Shown here in pieces: positions 21,625 through 31,283 of a stretch of DNA of 64,000 nt. Each line of letters opens with the position of its first letter. The first letter of the stretch is position 1. The notes beneath the pieces are model-generated. The model had not been told where the DNA came from. It made no database searches and saw only the letters and a program-made list of their open reading frames with translations. Origin of the DNA: Fodinisporobacter ferrooxydans (GTDB lineage Bacteria; Bacillota; Bacilli; Tumebacillales; MYW30-H2); the NCBI RefSeq assembly GCF_022818495.1, contig NZ_CP089291.1, positions 3,365,501 through 3,429,500 of the forward strand. The letters are read 5' to 3'. The translations under genes and the position numbers were made by a program.

Positions 21625-22164
21625 ATGGTTCTCTCTGATAAAGATCTTAGCTATCGGGAGATTATCACCAACGCAATTTGCGGCAAAGGAAATAAATATT
21701 CCCAAACCACGTATACGATTCGTCCGGCACATACGCCTACAACAATCGGCGGCTGCTGGGTCATGAATCATTCATATGAGGCTGAATTGGTTGGTGAAGT
21801 TGTCGAGGTTCATGGCCGATTTGATGTAAACGTATGGTATTCCTACAATGGCAACAGCGAGACAGCAGTCGCAAAAGAACGCGTAAGCTACAGGGAGCAA
21901 ATTCCCCTTCGAGACGTCGATCCCAACTGCTTCAAAGACGGAATGGAAGTTGCCGTAAAAGTCGTGCAAATGCCGAATTGCCTGGATGCAACGGTTGTCG
22001 ACAACAGCAATGAAATTTTGGTTCGCGTCGAAAAAGAAATGGCAGTCGAAGTCATCGGTCGCACAAAAGTATGTGTAGTCACATGCATTCTTACAGACAA
22101 GAAAGATGAAGAGTTCTTTGAAGGCGAAGTTTTAGACGAAGATGACGACGATTTTGAAGACTAA
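21625..22164 (+). CDS. cotE: Outer spore coat morphogenetic protein CotE
   Basis: CotE organises the outer coat around the developing spore in the mother cell. The 179-residue sequence matches the family from YREIITNAICGKGNK through IGGCWVMNHSYEAELVG and VEVHGRFDVNVWYSYN to VQMPNCLDATVV, then EVIGRTKVCVV. It ends in the characteristic acidic tail (DEDDDDFED). The tail is shorter than in Bacillus. ATG 21625 has a perfect AAGGAGGT. The gene keeps its ancestral place upstream of miaB-mutS-mutL, but about 9.5 kb of ATP-grasp and germination genes is interposed here. A terminator at 22166 ends the transcript. Confidence 0.95.
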   Translation: MVLSDKDLSYREIITNAICGKGNKYSQTTYTIRPAHTPTTIGGCWVMNHSYEAELVGEVVEVHGRFDVNVWYSYNGNSETAVAKERVSYREQIPLRDVDPNCFKDGMEVAVKVVQMPNCLDATVVDNSNEILVRVEKEMAVEVIGRTKVCVVTCILTDKKDEEFFEGEVLDEDDDDFED

Positions 22165-22165
22165 G

Positions 22166-22194
22166 CGGCGTCCATGACGTCGCTTTTTTTATAT
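22166..22194 (+). terminator. Rho-independent terminator after cotE
   Basis: GCGGCGTC and GACGTCGC form an 8-bp stem (one G-T pair) around CAT, followed by seven T residues. Confidence 0.85.
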
Positions 22195-22206
22195 ACTGTA
22201 CGCAAT

Positions 22207-23646
22207 ATGCCAGCTCATATGACACGGCTTTCGTGTATCTGTCATATTCCCGAGTTGAGCGGATTGTCGAAAGAAAGTGTGGGATGGAGCTTGCAACATT
22301 CATTGATTTGTCATGTACAAATGGATTCAACATGGCCGGGTTGCCAAGTCGGGCTGCCGAAACGCTTATTCAAGCAATTGTCGTGCAAACCTGGAACACG
22401 CATGCGCATAAAAATCTCCTCCCAATCTGTACATGCAGTCATACGCGCAACGACTCGTGAAGAAGTAGTGTTTTCCAATCGTATCGGACAACGATTGCAT
22501 TTTCAAGGCGGTCGCATTTCGGTTCGGAAAAAAGGGGATACGCTTGAATTTGGACCGGTGATTGCATTGTATGTTGTTGGAAGTCCAGAGAATCAACCGC
22601 CATTTCCCAATATGACGCGTATGGTATGCGATACCATTCGAATCGGTGAAGAAAAGGGAATGTACGTCTATGCTGTAATCCCTGGTGGAATTTCCGTGCG
22701 GGAACAGAGAGCGTTTGGTGCGCGGGGAACATCCTATGACAAATGGATATGGTGTGAACAGCCGTATCCTGATATCGTGATCCGGAAAGCTGCAACATTT
22801 CCCAAAGGTGTGTATCGGCAGGCAAAAACAGATCTGAATATTTTGGATAAATCAGGGGATATCATGTTCATGGCAAAAGATATTGGCGATAAGTGGTCAG
22901 TTTACAGATGGCTTTGGAACTATGAACCGCTGCGCAAGCATCTCCCGTATACGGAACTGTATAAAAAACAGTCACAGCAAGTGGTTGATTTGTTGGAACA
23001 GTACCAATCGTTGTATGTAAAGCCGGTACGAGGCACGCAAGGAAAAGGGATTTATAAACTTACCAACGGAAAACACAATGGTATCATACGTATCGAAAAT
23101 ACGGCAATTCCCTCGCAAATGCAAAAGATCAAGAGAACAGATCTTTTAAAAAATAAACAAATGCTCCCCATTTCGAGCCAATCGTACTTGCTGCAACAAT
23201 CACTGCATTTACTGAAGCATCAAAACCATCTTACGGATTTTCGCTGGATGATTCAAAAACTTCCCAATCAAAACTGGGAAATAACGGCTCGGATTTGCCG
23301 AATCGGAAGAGAAAAAACAATTTCTACAAACATTCATACAGGTGGTCAAGCTGTTTTGGCGGAACAGTGGCTATATGGCCATTCGAATTTACTCCCGCGT
23401 TCGACAAAAGAAATTCTCGAGGAAATGGATGAAATCGCAAGAAGTGTTGCTGTTGCGATCGATCAGAAAGTCGGCGGCGTTTTGGAATTGGGCGTTGATT
23501 TGGGTGTGGATCGAAACGGCAGGATCTGGATTATTGAAGTAAATCCCCGTCCTGGACGGAAAATGTTGCGATTATGCCAACCGGAAGTCCGGCAACTATC
23601 ACTTCTGCGCCCACTTGAATATGCTAAATACGCAAAAGGATTTTAA
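22207..23646 (+). CDS. YheC/YheD-type ATP-grasp protein (spore coat-associated family), first of cluster
   Basis: About 479 residues with the YheC/YheD architecture. A beta-rich N-terminal part includes EFGPVIALYVVG, then the family's PDIVIRKAATF segment. The ATP-grasp domain follows: KPVRGTQGKGIYKL (ATP-binding lysine and glycine loop), DFRWMIQK, and GVDLGVDRNGRIWIIEVNPRPG with the metal-binding Glu/Asn pair. ATP-grasp enzymes join a carboxylate to an amine through an acyl-phosphate; the Bacillus members are coat-associated but their substrates are unknown. The start is uncertain: no good site precedes ATG 22207 or 22219. It overlaps the frame region leading into the next gene, 44 bases away. 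Confidence 0.85.
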   Translation: MPAHMTRLSCICHIPELSGLSKESVGWSLQHSLICHVQMDSTWPGCQVGLPKRLFKQLSCKPGTRMRIKISSQSVHAVIRATTREEVVFSNRIGQRLHFQGGRISVRKKGDTLEFGPVIALYVVGSPENQPPFPNMTRMVCDTIRIGEEKGMYVYAVIPGGISVREQRAFGARGTSYDKWIWCEQPYPDIVIRKAATFPKGVYRQAKTDLNILDKSGDIMFMAKDIGDKWSVYRWLWNYEPLRKHLPYTELYKKQSQQVVDLLEQYQSLYVKPVRGTQGKGIYKLTNGKHNGIIRIENTAIPSQMQKIKRTDLLKNKQMLPISSQSYLLQQSLHLLKHQNHLTDFRWMIQKLPNQNWEITARICRIGREKTISTNIHTGGQAVLAEQWLYGHSNLLPRSTKEILEEMDEIARSVAVAIDQKVGGVLELGVDLGVDRNGRIWIIEVNPRPGRKMLRLCQPEVRQLSLLRPLEYAKYAKGF

Positions 23647-23689
23647 TCACGAGCTTGTGACAAACCTCTGTATGAACGGAGGCTCTGCA

Positions 23690-25081
23690 ATGAAACAAGA
23701 AAACATGATATTTTTGAAAGGACCTCCCGGGCGAAAGCATGAACTTTTCCTTACTTTTGACCAAATGGATACGTACAAAATAAAGCAAATGGAAATCATT
23801 GAACTACAATTCGGCCTGAAGCGAATAGAAGTTCGGGTGATTCAGCGGCATCGGTGGCAAAAGCCCGAGGAATCCACGATCTATTGCACGGCAGATGTGT
23901 TGGAAGCATTACAAATCCCCGAAGATCGGTTGCTGCCGATATACTACTCCAGCGCAAAAGGAAAATTACAGATCGGTCCATTGGTCGGGATCCTTGCACA
24001 TGTGCGTTACAAACCGGCATCAGGGGTATATGGCGAGCAAGAACCGGCATTTCGCAAATTATTAGACGCGGCAAATGATTTGGGAATGATGGGCTATGTT
24101 TTTTCACCGCTCGAAATCGAATGGGCCACAGATATGACATGGGCATACCAATATATTGCGGCAAAAGAAGGAGAAGGGCAATGGAGACGATTGAAACTGC
24201 CATTGCCTGATGTCGTATATGATCAAATTTCCACGCGCAAATTCGAAACACGCGCAAACGTGCAGGCAGCATCCAAACGGTTGCAAAAATTGATGCAAAA
24301 ACGGTTTTTTAACCAAGGGTTTTTTAACAAATGGCAAGTGCATCAATGGTTGACAGGGGATGCTGCAACAAGCAAGTATGTACCGGATTCTGTGCGCTAC
24401 GAAAATCCTGCCGCTACGGATGCCTTGTTGAACCGCTACGGGAATCTCTACTTGAAACCCATTCACGGAAGCCTTGGCATTGGCATTATCAAGTTGACCC
24501 GTTTAGCGGACGGTCGGATTTATTATCAACTGAAGCAGCGAAAAAAAACGGTGCAAGGATACGCGAAAGGGACTGCTCAAGCATTGCAGATTCTGAAAAA
24601 AAGGCAGAGGAATCACCTGATCGTGCAACAAGGTTTGAACCTGCTGGCTTACCAGGGACGGCCATTCGACATACGCGTGTTGATGCAAAAAGACGGGGAA
24701 GGGAAATGGTCCCGGACAAAAATGTTTGTGCGAATTGCCAAACAAGGAGAAATCACATCCAACTTAACCACTGGCGGTGATGCCCGGCCGATCCGGGAAA
24801 CATTGCAAGAAATGTTTCGGGATCAAGGAAAAGTCAGCCAGATCTTGAAAGACATCCGTTCTTGCATCAAGGTTGTACCGCTTGCAATCGAACAACAAGC
24901 AGAGATCTCGCTGGGTGAATTGGGATTGGATTTGGGAATAGATACAAATGGTAAGCTTTGGGTGATCGAAGCAAACGCCAAACCATGGAAAAAAACAGAA
25001 ACCGAACATGGGTCGCTGGCGGTCGTGGAACGATCTTTCCATAGACCGATGGAATATGCGCGATTTTTGGCTTTCTCCTGA
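23690..25081 (+). CDS. YheC/YheD-type ATP-grasp protein, second of cluster
   Basis: This 463-residue paralogue of the first has the same order: a beta-rich N-terminal domain (IGPLVGILAHVRYKPASGVYG), LPDVVYDQISTRKFETRA, then ATP-grasp motifs KPIHGSLGIGIIKL, RPFDIRVLMQKD and LGLDLGIDTNGKLWVIEAN. All catalytic positions appear intact. ATG 23690 has CGGAGG 7 bases upstream and lies only 43 bases after the first gene. It probably forms one transcript with its neighbours and a mother-cell sporulation role is inferred from homology and from cotE nearby. Substrate unknown. Confidence 0.88.
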   Translation: MKQENMIFLKGPPGRKHELFLTFDQMDTYKIKQMEIIELQFGLKRIEVRVIQRHRWQKPEESTIYCTADVLEALQIPEDRLLPIYYSSAKGKLQIGPLVGILAHVRYKPASGVYGEQEPAFRKLLDAANDLGMMGYVFSPLEIEWATDMTWAYQYIAAKEGEGQWRRLKLPLPDVVYDQISTRKFETRANVQAASKRLQKLMQKRFFNQGFFNKWQVHQWLTGDAATSKYVPDSVRYENPAATDALLNRYGNLYLKPIHGSLGIGIIKLTRLADGRIYYQLKQRKKTVQGYAKGTAQALQILKKRQRNHLIVQQGLNLLAYQGRPFDIRVLMQKDGEGKWSRTKMFVRIAKQGEITSNLTTGGDARPIRETLQEMFRDQGKVSQILKDIRSCIKVVPLAIEQQAEISLGELGLDLGIDTNGKLWVIEANAKPWKKTETEHGSLAVVERSFHRPMEYARFLAFS

Positions 25082-25139
25082 AATCGCAAATGTTCGTAAG
25101 GTGTGATTTACTATTACAGAAAAGAAGGGAGACGCGGCG

Positions 25140-26606
25140 ATGGGCTTTACACTCTTGCATTCCGGCCAACCGTCCGCCAAGCGGCTTCTGAAACGTTTGG
25201 AAATGTGCAAAGGCACAGACTCGATTCAGCAGGTGGCAAATGATGATATTGTGATCCGCTGGGGGAATTTTCAATTTGAGCGGGAATTTCATCTCGAGTT
25301 AAATCCAAGGCTGGCAATTGCAAACACGCAAAACCGTTTGCACATGTTGCGGATGTTACAACGCTCCGGAATCCGCTGTCCGATCGATTCGGATTCCAAT
25401 ACATTAAAAAATCCCACAATGGTCCGTCAATATCGAGTGCCGATTTTTGATCTGAAACCATTGACATGTTTTCGATCGGATGGAAAAGACATCTGGTTGA
25501 ACAAACGGATTACCCAAGTGCAAGATTCCTTTCAGGAAGTATCTCCAGATCATGATGCGGTCACGGCAAAAGTGTGTTTGTATGCTGCGCGTGCCATTCA
25601 TACTCTCGGACTGGATTTTGGACTTGTCAGCATTGGAACAAATGCAAGAGGCTGGATGTATGTGCTGGATGTCACGCCAAACCCGATTTTAAAAGGGAGA
25701 ATGCTGGATGTCTTCAGTAAGGCCATTCGCTCTTATATCGCAGACGATGCGCAAGCTCCAAATGCCTATCAATCCTTTTTGATCGGGACTGATTTGGAAT
25801 TTATGCTGCGAAATCAACAGGGAAAAATGGTGCTGGCATCAAAATATTTTCCACGCAAGGGAATTGTCGGATGCGATGCCCGCAGCATACAGCGGGACGG
25901 CAAACGATATCCCCTTGCAGAATTGCGACCGGCACCAGAAAAAAAACCACTGGATCTGTTTGAAAATTTGTATCATGCGATGATGGAAGCAAAGCGCCTC
26001 ATCAACCGCAAAGGGGTTGCTTGGCTCGCCGGCAGCATGCCGTTTCACGGATATCCGATCGGCGGCCACATTCATTTTAGCGGAATTCCGTTTTCCAGCC
26101 AGATCGCTAAAGCACTTGACACGTATTTGGCGATTCCGGTCATGCTGATCGAAGACCCGCAATCCTCGACCCGCCGTCGGCCGCGGTACGGATTTTTGGG
26201 AGATATTCGGCACAAGGATCATGGCGGCTTCGAATATCGAACACCTGGCAGTTGGATTGTGAATCCTGATATTGCCAAAGCAGTCATCTGCTTGGCGTAT
26301 CTGGTCGCCCAATACCACCGTCAATTGGCATATAACCCATTTGTTGATGCGGATGTTCAGCAGGCATTTTATGCTTCGAACAAACTATATTTCCGGCCGA
26401 TCTTCGAACGGGTATGGAGTGAGTTGTCGCAATTGCCGAATTTTGGTGATTATAAACAGCAATTGCAAATCATTGCAGATATGGTTCGGCAGGAAGAATG
26501 CTGGAACGAATCGGAAGATATCAAGCGCAATTGGAGGATTTCATCTGCCGTTCCGACAAGCATCACAAATGCAAACAGAAAGTCACTTGCTCGGCGATTG
26601 GGGTAA
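25140..26606 (+). CDS. Fusion of degenerate ATP-grasp region and glutamine-synthetase-like amidoligase (COOH-NH2 ligase type 2)
   Basis: This 488-residue two-part protein has an N-terminal half (about 1-210) that resembles the YheC/YheD or RimK ATP-grasp fold: IANTQNRLHMLRMLQRSGI, KTNP-like region replaced by NKRITQVQDSF, and ARGWMYVLDVTPNPILKG. It lacks the ATP-binding KPxxG loop. The C-terminal half matches the phage phiEco32-type amidoligase family: GTDLEFMLRN, GCDARSIQRDGKRYPLAELRPAPE, GGHIHFSGIPF and GGFEYRTPGSW carry the expected Glu, His and Arg residues. Such ligases were predicted to make amide bonds in peptides or cell-surface tags. RBS AAGGGAG precedes ATG 25140. Substrate unknown. 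Confidence 0.82.
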   Translation: MGFTLLHSGQPSAKRLLKRLEMCKGTDSIQQVANDDIVIRWGNFQFEREFHLELNPRLAIANTQNRLHMLRMLQRSGIRCPIDSDSNTLKNPTMVRQYRVPIFDLKPLTCFRSDGKDIWLNKRITQVQDSFQEVSPDHDAVTAKVCLYAARAIHTLGLDFGLVSIGTNARGWMYVLDVTPNPILKGRMLDVFSKAIRSYIADDAQAPNAYQSFLIGTDLEFMLRNQQGKMVLASKYFPRKGIVGCDARSIQRDGKRYPLAELRPAPEKKPLDLFENLYHAMMEAKRLINRKGVAWLAGSMPFHGYPIGGHIHFSGIPFSSQIAKALDTYLAIPVMLIEDPQSSTRRRPRYGFLGDIRHKDHGGFEYRTPGSWIVNPDIAKAVICLAYLVAQYHRQLAYNPFVDADVQQAFYASNKLYFRPIFERVWSELSQLPNFGDYKQQLQIIADMVRQEECWNESEDIKRNWRISSAVPTSITNANRKSLARRLG

Positions 26607-26783
26607 TCGCTGGGCTTTTTTCGTATAAATTGCGGGAAGTTTCTGTGGAAAACGTCACACGCCGTACGCAGGATTTACATACAATATGTTGACATGGATG
26701 TTTACAGGAGTGTTTGGTTCACCCCTTTTGCTATATGACACAATCGTTGGAAACTGACAATGAGTCGAGAGAGGGCTTGAGAA

Positions 26784-28085
26784 ATGGTGCGAAACGTACG
26801 AGTGTTTTTGGATCGAGTACGAACAGGTGCACAAACACAATGGATGATACGGATGCGGCGGAAAGATTTTCAACAGTGTTTTGCCGAGAAACAAAAACAG
26901 CTCGTTGCTCGGTTGGGATTGAACGGTGAAATGAAAGCATGGCCGATTACATTGCGCAAACTGCAAGATATAGAACTCTCGATTCCCATTCGATTATTCC
27001 ATTACAACGATGAATGGGTCTTAGGGCCGATACTTGGAATCTTGACTTCCGTTCGCGGTCAAACGTTTGGCGGCAATCGTACAGATCACCGTGATCTGAG
27101 CCGAATGGGAAAACATACACATACTTGCGTATTCGTCTTGACACCAGAATCGATTGTGTATGAACAAAATCAGATTCATGGATATGTATGGACGGGTTAT
27201 AAGAATAAACCTTGGGTTCTGGTTGACTTGCCGATACCTGATGTCGTGTATAACAGGATTCCAAATCGGGCGCGAGAACGTGATGCGATGGCAATCGAAG
27301 CAAAACAATGGCTAATTAAGAAAACAAAGGGACATCTGTACAATAGCCGTTTCTTTAATAAGGTTGAATTGATGAAGTATATGTCTGACTCGGAAGAAAC
27401 GCGCATATATTTGCCGCGTACAGAGATTTTTCAATCCCGCAACCAATTGATCCAATGGTTGCGGAACCGACCGATCATTTATGTCAAACCTGCCAATGGA
27501 ACCATTGGTCAAGGAATTATTCGCATCGACCGATCCTATTCCGGTTGGACCATTAAAAAACAATTGCAAGGGGAACAAATCGTACGGCATTATCAACAAC
27601 TGCAGCCTGCGGTAAGTACGATTTCCCAGTGGATTGCAAGAGGAAACTATATCATTCAGGAAGGTGTGCAGCTTGCCAATTGGCAAGGAAGAATCTTTGA
27701 TTTTCGCGTATTGCTGCAAAAAGACCGCAGGCATCGTTGGAAGGTAACGGGCCTGGGCGCGCGGGTAGCAGGGCTGGACGGTATCACGACACATGTTCCC
27801 AACGGCGGAAAAATTGCCAATGCCAAGCAAGTTCTGGAGGACGTATTTCCTGGCAATTCGGCAAGGATTTACAATGAAATCAAACATTTGGCCCTCGTCT
27901 CGGCACAACAAATCGAAAAAAATATTTCCAATGTAGGGGAAATGTCAATGGATATTGGTGTCGATGACAATGGGAAGCCTTGGTTCATCGAAGCGAATGC
28001 AAAGCCGATGAAGTTCGATGAACCAACGATTCGCCTGCGTTCATTGCTTAGGATCATCCATTATGCCGAAGGTCTTTATGTATAA
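26784..28085 (+). CDS. YheC/YheD-type ATP-grasp protein, third paralogue of cluster
   Basis: This 433-residue protein shows the same family motifs: VLGPILGILTSVRGQTFGG at the N-terminal domain, LPIPDVVYNRIPNRARERDA, KPANGTIGQGIIRI, IFDFRVLLQKD and MDIGVDDNGKPWFIEANAKP. It is closest in layout to the second gene, and duplication within the cluster is likely. ATG 26784 has GAGAGAGGG about 8 bases upstream. A 177-base gap separates it from the amidoligase gene, so it might have its own promoter. The 28093 gene on the other strand converges on it. Confidence 0.87.
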   Translation: MVRNVRVFLDRVRTGAQTQWMIRMRRKDFQQCFAEKQKQLVARLGLNGEMKAWPITLRKLQDIELSIPIRLFHYNDEWVLGPILGILTSVRGQTFGGNRTDHRDLSRMGKHTHTCVFVLTPESIVYEQNQIHGYVWTGYKNKPWVLVDLPIPDVVYNRIPNRARERDAMAIEAKQWLIKKTKGHLYNSRFFNKVELMKYMSDSEETRIYLPRTEIFQSRNQLIQWLRNRPIIYVKPANGTIGQGIIRIDRSYSGWTIKKQLQGEQIVRHYQQLQPAVSTISQWIARGNYIIQEGVQLANWQGRIFDFRVLLQKDRRHRWKVTGLGARVAGLDGITTHVPNGGKIANAKQVLEDVFPGNSARIYNEIKHLALVSAQQIEKNISNVGEMSMDIGVDDNGKPWFIEANAKPMKFDEPTIRLRSLLRIIHYAEGLYV

Positions 28086-28092
28086 GGGTTGA

Positions 28093-28374
28093 TTACTTCG
28101 CTTGCGTTGCATCGCGCAACGGCCAAGGCAGGGAAAAGAATCGGGAACCTTTTGTCACTTCAACTACGAACGACCAATTGACCAAGTGCCATTTGCGATC
28201 ATAAATCAAACAACTCTGGAACTTCGAGCAAATCGTATAAACATCCCGTAATGACAGCGCCACTTCCAATTGATCGGGAGATACGACGGGGCCGTGATAG
28301 GAAAGTTCGGCTGATTCCTTGTTATAGGGCTGGATAAAGACGCGGAACGTCGGGACGTTTCGTTTTTCTGACAT
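28093..28374 (-). CDS. Hypothetical protein, 93 residues
   Basis: I do not recognise this protein. It is soluble, with no signal peptide. Segments TFRVFIQPYNKESAELSYHG, VSPDQLEVALSLRDVYTICS and LIYDRKWHLVNWSFVVEV suggest a small alpha/beta fold. It is convergent with the ATP-grasp gene (8 bases apart) and divergent from the germination operon. The minus-strand start at 28374 is preceded by GGAGGA (complement of tcctcc at 28381), which supports expression. Position suggests possible co-regulation with sporulation genes but nothing in the sequence proves it. Confidence 0.6.
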   Translation of the reverse strand: MSEKRNVPTFRVFIQPYNKESAELSYHGPVVSPDQLEVALSLRDVYTICSKFQSCLIYDRKWHLVNWSFVVEVTKGSRFFSLPWPLRDATQAK

Positions 28375-28581
28375 GCCGATTCCTCCTAAATCAAGGTGTT
28401 TGTGCGCCTTTTATTGTACATGGAAGAAATTTCTATAGCAATGGTTTTTTTATGAATCCCTTCTTCACAAGACGTATGCTTGTGCAGGAGGGATAGTTTT
28501 TTAACGGAAACACGCAAAAATGCAAGTCTTTTCATAAAATGGCGAATACTAGCTCGGAAGACTCTAGGAAGGATGTGCAAG

Positions 28582-30102
28582 ATGAAAAAACAGCACCAGA
28601 GTTCCGACAATTCCTCTAGGATCGTTCAGGGGCTTTCAAATTTGGATGATTGGAAACGTCCATTGTTTTCAACTCTGGAAGACAATCAACTTGCTCTCAA
28701 AAGCATCTTTTCCCGCTGTTCCGACGTTGTGTTTCGAGAGTTTCAACTCCTTGACGGAACAAATGTCCTTTGTGTGTATGTAAACGGGATGGTGGCACAA
28801 GAGGAACTAGAGCTGACTGTAATCGAGCCGCTTCTGGAAGGCAAACCGATACGTGCCGCACAGAAAAGGAAAATACAGCAATTGGACCAGGTTGCTTCGC
28901 ATATTCTTGAAGGGGATACGGCGATCCTGGCAGATGCCTATAGAGAAGCAACGATGGTAAGTTTACAGCAATACGAAAAACGATCGATTGCGGAACCGTT
29001 GACAGAAGCGGTCATTCGGGGGTCAAGGGAAGGCTTTATCGAATCCATTGCGACAAATATGATGTTAATTCGTCGGAGAATTCGCTCACCCAAATTAAAA
29101 GCAGAAATCATGCAGGTCGGTACACTTACGCGAACGGATGTGGCGGTGATGTATATCGAGGGACTCGCCGATCCGGATATCGTGGGGGAAGTACAGAATC
29201 GGATCCAAGCGATCGAAATCGACGGCATCCTGGAAAGTGGGTATATCGAGGAATTTATTACGGATACACCCTATACCGTTTTTCCTTTAATCCAGGATAC
29301 AGAGCGCCCCGATGTTGTCGTGGCCGGCTTGCTTGAGGGACGAGTCGCCATACTTGTCGATGGTACGCCATTTGCATTGCTTGCCCCGATGACATTTTGG
29401 GTGGGGATGCAGGCAGCGGAAGATTATTATGTAAAATATGTTTCGGCTACACTTGTCCGCTGGGTGCGGTATATGTTTTTATTTATCGCATTGCTTTTGC
29501 CGTCCATTTATGTGGCGATTTCCACGTTTCATCAAGAGATGCTGCCGACAAATCTGTTGATCAGCGTTGCCGCCGCCCGTGAATCCAGTCCATTCCCCGC
29601 GTTTATCGAAGCGCTGTTTATGGAAATCACATTTGAAGCGCTGCGGGAAGCAGGTGTCCGTCTTCCCCGTCCGGTGGGCCAATCTGTCAGCATTGTAGGC
29701 GGTTTGGTGATCGGACAGGCAGCCGTTCAAGCGGGTATTGTATCGGCACCCATGGTAATTGTCGTTTCCATTACCGGGATTGCATCGTTTATCATTCCCC
29801 GGTTTAGCACCGGATTTGCCATACGGATGCTGCGTTTTCCCATGATTTTTCTGGCTGGAACGTTAGGGCTGTACGGGATCGTGTTGGGGATGCTCGCTCT
29901 ATTAATTCACTTGGCGAGCCTGCGTTCGTTTGGAATTCCCTATTTTTCACCGTTAGCTCCGCTGAAAGTCAGTCATCTGAAAGATGTTTTTGTCCGCGCG
30001 CCTTTATGGAGCTTGACAAGACGCCCAGTGAACGGTATGCATGCAGATCGGCAACGAATGGCTGTAGATCAAAAGCCGTCGCCAGAGGATGATATGCGAT
30101 GA
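28582..30102 (+). CDS. GerA-type spore germination receptor, A subunit
   Basis: This 506-residue membrane protein of the GerAA/GerBA family carries two hydrophilic N-terminal domains and then about five membrane helices. Family signatures are YIEGLADPDIVGEVQNRI, DTERPDVVVAGLLEGRVAILVDGTPFALLAP, and VRLPRPVGQSVSIVGGLVIGQAAV. It forms nutrient-gated receptors in the inner membrane of the dormant spore. ATG 28582 has AGGAAGGA 8 bases upstream. It overlaps the C-subunit gene by ATGA. The usual second gene, a GerB permease of about 360 residues, is absent from this operon. Confidence 0.94.
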   Translation: MKKQHQSSDNSSRIVQGLSNLDDWKRPLFSTLEDNQLALKSIFSRCSDVVFREFQLLDGTNVLCVYVNGMVAQEELELTVIEPLLEGKPIRAAQKRKIQQLDQVASHILEGDTAILADAYREATMVSLQQYEKRSIAEPLTEAVIRGSREGFIESIATNMMLIRRRIRSPKLKAEIMQVGTLTRTDVAVMYIEGLADPDIVGEVQNRIQAIEIDGILESGYIEEFITDTPYTVFPLIQDTERPDVVVAGLLEGRVAILVDGTPFALLAPMTFWVGMQAAEDYYVKYVSATLVRWVRYMFLFIALLLPSIYVAISTFHQEMLPTNLLISVAAARESSPFPAFIEALFMEITFEALREAGVRLPRPVGQSVSIVGGLVIGQAAVQAGIVSAPMVIVVSITGIASFIIPRFSTGFAIRMLRFPMIFLAGTLGLYGIVLGMLALLIHLASLRSFGIPYFSPLAPLKVSHLKDVFVRAPLWSLTRRPVNGMHADRQRMAVDQKPSPEDDMR

Positions 30103-31283
30103 CGCGTTGGAAAAGATCGATCTATTACCTGCTAACACTCGGTCTTGTTGCTGTCACGACAACCGGTTGCTGGGATCGCGTCGAAATTAATGACTTGGCA
30201 CTGGTTGTGGCCAGAGGGATCGATATGACAGAAGATGGGAAATTAATGTCAACCATCGAGATCGTAAATCCTTCCGCCATGTCGCAAGGGATGACAGGCA
30301 CCGGTGGTCAATCGAATGCAAAACCTTTCCTGATCGTGTCTGGGAGCGGAAAAGACATCGGTGATATTTCGGGAAAAATGCAAGAAAAACTCTCCCGGCG
30401 AATTTTCACGGCACATCGGCGCATTCTGATTATCGGAGAAAAGTTGGCAAAACACGGGATTGAAAATGTGATCGATCACTTTACCCGGGAACCGGCCAAT
30501 CGTCTGCGCTCGTATGTGCTTGTCGCTCGCGGTACAACTGCAAAAGAAGTGTTGGAACAGACATATCCTCTCGAACGCATTACTTCTGAAGGAATTCGGG
30601 AGATGCAGATGTCTGAACTGTCAGTTTCCACGACAATCAAAGATCTGGTCACGATGCTTTCGGAAGAAGGCGGCGACCCCATTTGCGCTGTCATTGAATT
30701 AAATAAGAACATCGACAAAAATAAAGTCCCCTTTCATCTCAACGGATCTGCTGTTTTTCGCAATGGAAAACTGGTTCAATATCTCGATGATACATTGACA
30801 AGAGGAATTCTCTGGGCCAGAGACGAGATGAGGCAGGGAATTATTACATTTACCATACCCAAACAAACTGGCTATATTACCGTTCGGCTCATTCATTCTG
30901 CCACAAAAGTGACACCGGAAGTTCATGGCAACCATGCAACGATGCATATTCGTATAAAAACAGAAGGATATGTAATGGAAAATAATACAAAATTAGATTT
31001 GAGCAATCCAGAATATGTAGACATTTGCAATACGTATATGAGCAAAGCAATTGCCACACGGATTCAAAAGGCGATCGATGCAACGAAGAAGACAGATACG
31101 GATCCGGTAAGTTTTGGCGAATACATTCATAGAAGTCAATTAAGCCAGTGGCAAAGAATCAAAGGGCAATGGCGCAAGATCATACCGACGATGCAACTCG
31201 ATGTGAAAGTAAATACCCAAATCAGGCGTGTTGGCATGGATGGGCCAGGGTTGGAATGGAAACAAGACGAGGTGAAAAAATGA
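30099..31283 (+). CDS. Ger(x)C-family germination lipoprotein, C subunit
   Basis: The N-terminal signal peptide ends VAVTTTGCWDRVEINDLALV, where Cys at the TTGC lipobox is the acylation site and CWDRxEI is the hallmark of Ger(x)C proteins. The 394-residue protein continues with SGSGKDIGDISGKMQEKLSRR and TAHRRILIIGEKLAK, as in GerAC/GerBC. It is anchored on the outer face of the spore inner membrane and needed for nutrient germination. The start overlaps the A-subunit stop, so they are translationally coupled; the stop overlaps a third small gene in the same way. Confidence 0.93.
   Translation: MTRWKRSIYYLLTLGLVAVTTTGCWDRVEINDLALVVARGIDMTEDGKLMSTIEIVNPSAMSQGMTGTGGQSNAKPFLIVSGSGKDIGDISGKMQEKLSRRIFTAHRRILIIGEKLAKHGIENVIDHFTREPANRLRSYVLVARGTTAKEVLEQTYPLERITSEGIREMQMSELSVSTTIKDLVTMLSEEGGDPICAVIELNKNIDKNKVPFHLNGSAVFRNGKLVQYLDDTLTRGILWARDEMRQGIITFTIPKQTGYITVRLIHSATKVTPEVHGNHATMHIRIKTEGYVMENNTKLDLSNPEYVDICNTYMSKAIATRIQKAIDATKKTDTDPVSFGEYIHRSQLSQWQRIKGQWRKIIPTMQLDVKVNTQIRRVGMDGPGLEWKQDEVKK

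Follow-up and report, generated by a model that had tools for sequence, protein, structure and literature searches.

The conserved core of the gene cluster described here is the cotE-amidoligase pair, and the amidoligase, a PF14395 COOH-NH2 ligase, is an ancient partner of CotE that remains next to cotE in the majority of the sampled families of spore formers. We propose, tentatively and at somewhat less than even confidence, that this amidoligase is a protein-modifying enzyme dedicated to CotE, which would form an amide bond with the tail of CotE, a conserved lysine being the probable site. CotE is the proposed substrate, where the sequence-only reading named none, because genomes that carry the ligase always keep a lysine in the acidic tail of CotE.

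Organization of the locus

The window is the whole stretch of 64,000 nucleotides of Fodinisporobacter ferrooxydans DNA that was analysed, and the features of the locus within it are as follows.

21610, + strand: ribosome-binding site of cotE, GAAGGAGG (from the sequence)
ATG 21625, end 22164, + strand: cotE, outer spore coat morphogenetic protein (PF10628, 213 bits)
22078..22161, + strand: acidic C-terminal tail of CotE, VTCILTDKKDEEFFEGEVLDEDDDDFED (from the translation)
codons 22099-22104, + strand: K159 and K160 of the CotE tail, proposed acceptor site (from the translation; a tail lysine is found in 137/137 ligase-bearing cases)
22163..22185, + strand: terminator-like hairpin 3' of cotE
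22174..23646 (ORF limits; true start unsure), + strand: YheC/D-type ATP-grasp ligase A (PF14398, 220 bits)
23615..25081, likely start 23690, + strand: YheC/D-type ATP-grasp ligase B (PF14398, 266 bits)
25140..26606, + strand: amidoligase, PF14395 COOH-NH2 ligase (350 bits, residues 215-467)
26589..26615, + strand: terminator-like hairpin at the end of the amidoligase gene
26784..28085, + strand: YheC/D-type ATP-grasp ligase D (PF14398, 240 bits)
28342..28363, + strand: terminator-like hairpin between YheC/D D and the gerA pair
28480-31283: gerA-type gene pair (Pfam: GerA, GerAC)

The sequence-only reading had placed three YheC/D ATP-grasp genes and one amidoligase gene, all in the same direction, between cotE and the germination genes, and this gene set is indeed present: all three YheC/D genes exceed the PF14398 cut-off of 26.8 bits (220, 266 and 240), and the amidoligase matches PF14395 over profile positions 1-254 of 254 with 350 bits against a cut-off of 25. 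Since terminator-like hairpins follow cotE, the amidoligase gene and YheC/D D, a single operon is improbable, and a single four-gene operon was dropped as unlikely, the three hairpins (22163-22185, 26589-26615 and 28342-28363) dividing the region. The layout probably comprises cotE, then yheCD-A, yheCD-B and the amidoligase gene, then yheCD-D, and finally gerA, as likely separate units. A promoter-motif scan of the locus gave no sigma-E match and one weak sigma-K-like motif 5' of YheC/D D. The yheC and yheD genes have been described as sigma-E genes whose expression is raised by SpoIIID (PMC517825). The source genome contains a single PF14395 gene and four further YheC/D genes away from the locus, and it also encodes CotH. 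The germination genes, whose proximity had been taken as part of the spore context of the cluster, appear to be an incidental neighbour: in none of the other loci inspected was the gerA pair found next to cotE.

The cotE-amidoligase pair across Bacilli

A profile search detected PF14395 in 44 of 61 relatives, and the usual gene order in the neighbourhoods of 34 of these 44 is miaB, a ymcA-sized gene, cotE, amidoligase, mutS and mutL. In a class-wide even sample of 151 Bacilli genomes, PF14395 was present in 94, CotE in 115 and Spo0A in 129. Every one of the 94 ligase-bearing genomes in this sample encodes CotE, and in 92 of them the amidoligase gene follows cotE downstream, on the same strand and within 6.1 kb, with mostly 0.6-0.9 kb separating the end of the CotE domain and the start of the PF14395 domain; in the two exceptions the ligase lies near a contig start and at a contig edge, respectively. 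CotE occurs without the ligase in 21 genomes; MutS was usable for 17 of these, which group in a single clade of the first tree. The B. subtilis control has CotE and no PF14395. Co-occurrence and gene order lend strong support to a role in spores and to a link with CotE, whereas the idea that the four genes constitute one pathway was only partly right, the YheC/D genes being optional and clade-specific. One Spo0A-positive genome (G057) has lost both CotE and the ligase; its family includes many ligase carriers, and the other members sampled contain the two genes.

YheC/D genes and their tie to the amidoligase

When the gene set was searched for in other spore formers, the order cotE-yheCD-yheCD-amidoligase-(yheCD) was found to recur in several families, namely in the source genome's own taxonomic order and in families f11, f22 and f25, and the set is therefore beyond a chance arrangement. 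The same order is seen in the 13 Alicyclobacillaceae-like loci that head the set of named genomes. Among 34 neighbourhoods, YheC/D genes beside the amidoligase are restricted to the source genome's order, f11, f22 and f25, apart from one weak case in f19. These genes were inserted in a small number of families and are optional and clade-specific. The YheC/D-linked amidoligases form one clade with a support of 100, which includes f22 even though MutS puts f22 elsewhere, and for this reason the cotE-linked set of YheC/D and amidoligase genes seems to move as a block. PF14395 and PF14398 domains are also found in a single chain, in cotE-unlinked paralogues of ~880 residues.

L154:3647-6265: PF14395-PF14398 fusion paralogue (Pfam-checked)
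L155:3602-6319: PF14395-PF14398 fusion paralogue (Pfam-checked)
L236:157-2793, - strand: PF14395-PF14398 fusion paralogue

Both the fused paralogues and the single clade of YheC/D-linked amidoligases make it likely that the two kinds of enzymes are functionally tied. One of the fusion genes adjoins a gene that resembles, by eye, a PEP-mutase-type enzyme.

In an alignment of 33 YheC/D sequences, the ATP-grasp residues K239, K281, D439 and N454 are invariant and E452 is nearly so, and because these residues are conserved in the family the YheC/D enzymes should be catalytically active. A model of YheC/D B (pLDDT 88.7) was matched in a fold search to RimK (Z 22.9), and also to ArgX/LysX, glutathione synthetase, TTLL enzymes and the graspetide ligase PsnB (Z 18.6). 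Neither for the amidoligase nor for YheC/D B was a solved relative found by sequence at E up to 1.

Predicted structure of the amidoligase

The active-site motifs GxDxE, ExRP, GGHxH, RR and EYR of the amidoligase are invariant in 34 orthologues, and PF14395 is its sole Pfam match at E up to 0.1, with no match to the Pup-ligase family. The AlphaFold2 model is confident (mean pLDDT 92.1, pTM 0.91) and falls into two parts. In the fold search, the C-terminal part (residues ~205-468) resembles YbdK (Z 17.5 and 17.1) and plant glutamate-cysteine ligase (Z 16.1), and this ligase domain also matches PafA (Z 15.8; 4bjr, 252 residues aligned) and Dop (Z 15.7). Residues 1-204 resemble RimK (Z 16.6), LysX/ArgX (Z 16.2 and 16.1) and PsnB (Z 15.8). 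This N-half is ~90 residues shorter than RimK, residues 1-204 being aligned to chains ~290 residues long, and it is not a complete ATP-grasp domain of the RimK type, the Mg-binding E-x-N positions not being conserved. As it is both shortened and devoid of a conserved E-x-N site, the RimK-like half is probably non-catalytic, and the model leaves room for a possible function in tail binding. The amidoligases are basic (median pI 9.7), and the CotE tail is acidic.

The nearest folds of the ligase domain, YbdK and GCL, work on small molecules, and many YheC/D copies lie outside the cotE locus. Both observations would be consistent with a real, if lesser, possibility that the amidoligase and the YheC/D enzymes decorate some other coat or cortex component with a small amino-acid or peptide group that they make or attach, with cotE being a co-regulated neighbour that does no more than organise the layer they act upon; the substrate cannot be named from the gene neighbourhood alone. 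This explanation is at odds with the strict pairing of the ligase with cotE and not with other coat genes, with the presence of the RimK-like half, whose counterpart in RimK deals with the tail of a protein, and with the pattern of the tail lysine in ligase-bearing genomes.

The lysine of the CotE tail

The C-terminus of CotE is acidic and variable among species, with D and E making up ~40% of the tail. A lysine is found at tail positions 5-22 in all 137 scored CotE tails from genomes with an adjacent ligase, and in 39/39 family or genus groups, a count made on the same tail comparison from which the tail-lysine hypothesis arose, the Evansella family having been looked at only afterwards. The set of tails includes some species twice, via two genome collections, and leaves out four or five split or frame-shifted cotE genes. 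One CotE tail, in Alicyclobacillus fastidiosus (L167:9001-9447), runs out of frame past GQTKLC, with the rest of the cluster present, owing to a frameshift or a sequencing error. Only D, E and K occur in every one of the 137 ligase-associated tails, 98 of which have exactly one lysine, and arginine is rare. In the main aligned lysine column, whose definition depends partly on the alignment of a variable tail, K stands in 81-83 of 137 rows with the ligase; of the 66 rows without it, 3 have K and most have D or E. In the remaining ligase-associated rows K is a few columns off, which is partly an alignment effect. As 64% of the tails without the ligase have a lysine somewhere, the signal lies in the position of the lysine and in the absence of exceptions. 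Two narrower features were dropped: an IDDLD at the extreme C-terminus of CotE as a co-varying feature, the ends having varied while the lysine was kept (GDLEE in Evansella with the enzyme; Alicyclobacillaceae-like MAGs), and a stricter motif with K flanked on both sides by acidic residues, which missed real cases. Three Bacillus timonensis-like loci (L201, L203 and L219) have the aligned tail lysine, in DDDKD or DDFKD, with PF14395 nowhere in the genome, and they count against the proposal; their lysine may be a leftover or an independent gain.

With ~40% of D and E in the tail, and with RimK, LysX and TTLL enzymes adding amino acids to acidic tails, one could suppose that the ligase acts on a carboxylate of CotE, in the acidic side chains or at the C-terminus, by adding amino acids, and that the lysine merely aids recognition. 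We consider this decidedly unlikely, given that the end of CotE is free to vary among ligase-bearing species while the lysine is always there, and that the N-half of the amidoligase looks non-catalytic.

The Evansella family offers a contrast within one family. The order cotE-ligase-mutS was found in Evansella and Litchfieldia alkalitelluris by a CotE scan of named genomes, and MutS places these ligase carriers inside the ligase-less clade. Their ligase is very divergent, with a very long branch in the tree, and retains D218, E220, E261, R263, H310, H312, R346, R347 and E365-Y-R; it may have been inherited vertically, with several losses, or acquired by transfer. Of 35 genomes of the family, 15 carry the ligase and 24 CotE, the latter including all 15 ligase carriers. 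The tails of this family align position by position. WD(D/E/S)K(V/I)W is found in all 15 with the ligase; among the nine CotE genomes without it, none of the eight readable tails has a lysine at this place (mostly WDEELW). There are two independent evolutionary contrasts for the link between ligase and lysine, both in the same direction; two pairs being too few for a sign test, a claim of significance from independent pairs was given up, and no significance is attached to the association. This small number of contrasts, and the fact that other columns of CotE follow the same split between genomes with and without the ligase, so that lineage effects are possible for the lysine pattern, are what could be said for lineage drift unrelated to the ligase, produced by one old split and the Evansella clade. 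Such drift is nevertheless very unlikely to be the explanation, as all ligase-bearing groups (39/39) keep the lysine although the rest of the tail varies, and the swap in the Evansella family falls at the same aligned site.

Interrupted cotE genes

Three genomes of family f16 have a cotE gene interrupted at one and the same point (WYSYNNNTD / ETTVLKE), with its two halves ~4-17 kb apart on the same strand.

L103:6154-17649: interrupted cotE (G062)
L112:5787-10366: interrupted cotE (G076)
L127:935-18659: interrupted cotE (G102)

Each interrupting stretch contains a gene of ~520 aa resembling a large serine recombinase, and in this respect the arrangement resembles the skin-type elements excised in sporulation. 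Such elements are known in sigK, spsM, gerE and yabG (PMC5595907, PMC4191935, PMC10747680), and our literature search found no report of one in cotE. One of the interrupting stretches (L127:1283-12000) also contains putative cas genes and a CRISPR-like repeat array, as judged by eye.

Proposed mechanism

Gene linkage, co-occurrence, lysine conservation, the predicted folds and the conserved active-site residues of the ligase were observed, and from them we infer the substrate (the CotE tail), the bond, the donor, the timing and the role. The RimK-like non-catalytic N-half and the overall basic charge of the amidoligase would help to hold the acidic and probably disordered CotE tail, and the C-terminal domain of the YbdK/GCL/PafA type would use ATP to activate a carboxylate and couple it to an amine. 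The acceptor would most likely be the epsilon-amine of the conserved tail lysine, and the product an isopeptide or an amino-acyl amide. In the window's clade, the three added RimK/TTLL-like YheC/D enzymes would probably extend or further modify the same CotE tail. The modification may tune or cement the assembly of the outer coat in the mother cell. In B. subtilis, the acidic tail of CotE is the docking site of CotH and directs outer-coat assembly, for which its acidic end is required (PMC4618286). Because the same tail docks CotH in B. subtilis, where the ligase is absent, its modification in other species would be expected to tune outer-coat assembly.

Most of what is known of coat assembly comes from B. 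subtilis, whose lineage is without the amidoligase. If a dedicated ligase covalently modifies CotE in the majority of the other Bacilli that have it (Paenibacillus, Alicyclobacillus, Tumebacillus and others), one of the central steps of this process has been overlooked, and the poorly understood PF14395, and possibly PF14398, gain a concrete substrate in the form of a lysine within a short tail.

Comparison with known systems

Several enzymes of these folds modify acidic disordered tails: RimK acts on S6, LysX on LysW, TTLL enzymes on tubulin, and PafA works with Pup. The amidoligase resembles PafA and Dop in the fold of its ligase domain (Z 15.8 and 15.7), and PafA takes the carboxylate from an acidic disordered protein and joins it to the amine of a lysine. 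The amidoligase differs from them in that it has no Pup-ligase Pfam match and in that the lysine would sit within the acidic tail itself. A further reading, which we regard as unlikely, is that the enzyme is a covalent cross-linker that connects the CotE tail lysine, through an isopeptide bond, with carboxylates on further CotE tails or on coat proteins, as a hitherto unrecognised conjugation system that builds the spore coat and is similar to that of the Pup ligase; if true, such a cross-linker would be common to most of the CotE-bearing Bacilli families sampled and missing from the B. subtilis lineage. RimK, LysX/ArgX and TTL/TTLL enzymes, which target acidic protein tails, share their fold with the N-half of the amidoligase (Z 16.6) and with YheC/D B (Z 22.9), but the N-half, unlike RimK, lacks ~90 residues and the E-x-N site. 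The likeness to PsnB extends to the ATP-grasp fold (Z 15.8 for the N-half, 18.6 for YheC/D B), and ligases of the PsnB type cross-link side chains in acidic peptides, whereas the substrate proposed here is a structural coat protein.

Among the papers searched, none joins CotE or YheC with an amidoligase. Iyer et al. 2009 reportedly described the CotE and YheC/D neighbourhood of the PF14395 family and proposed a role in the coat or wall, with no substrate named, and the Pfam texts for PF14395 ('phiEco32-like COOH.NH2 ligase-type 2') and PF14398, which follow that work, already note the CotE and YheC/D neighbours and suggest a role in the coat or wall. The family considered here is the same as in these accounts; what is added is how strictly the ligase pairs with cotE throughout the class, the finding that the RimK-like half is truncated, and the lysine in the CotE tail, which suggests CotE as the substrate.
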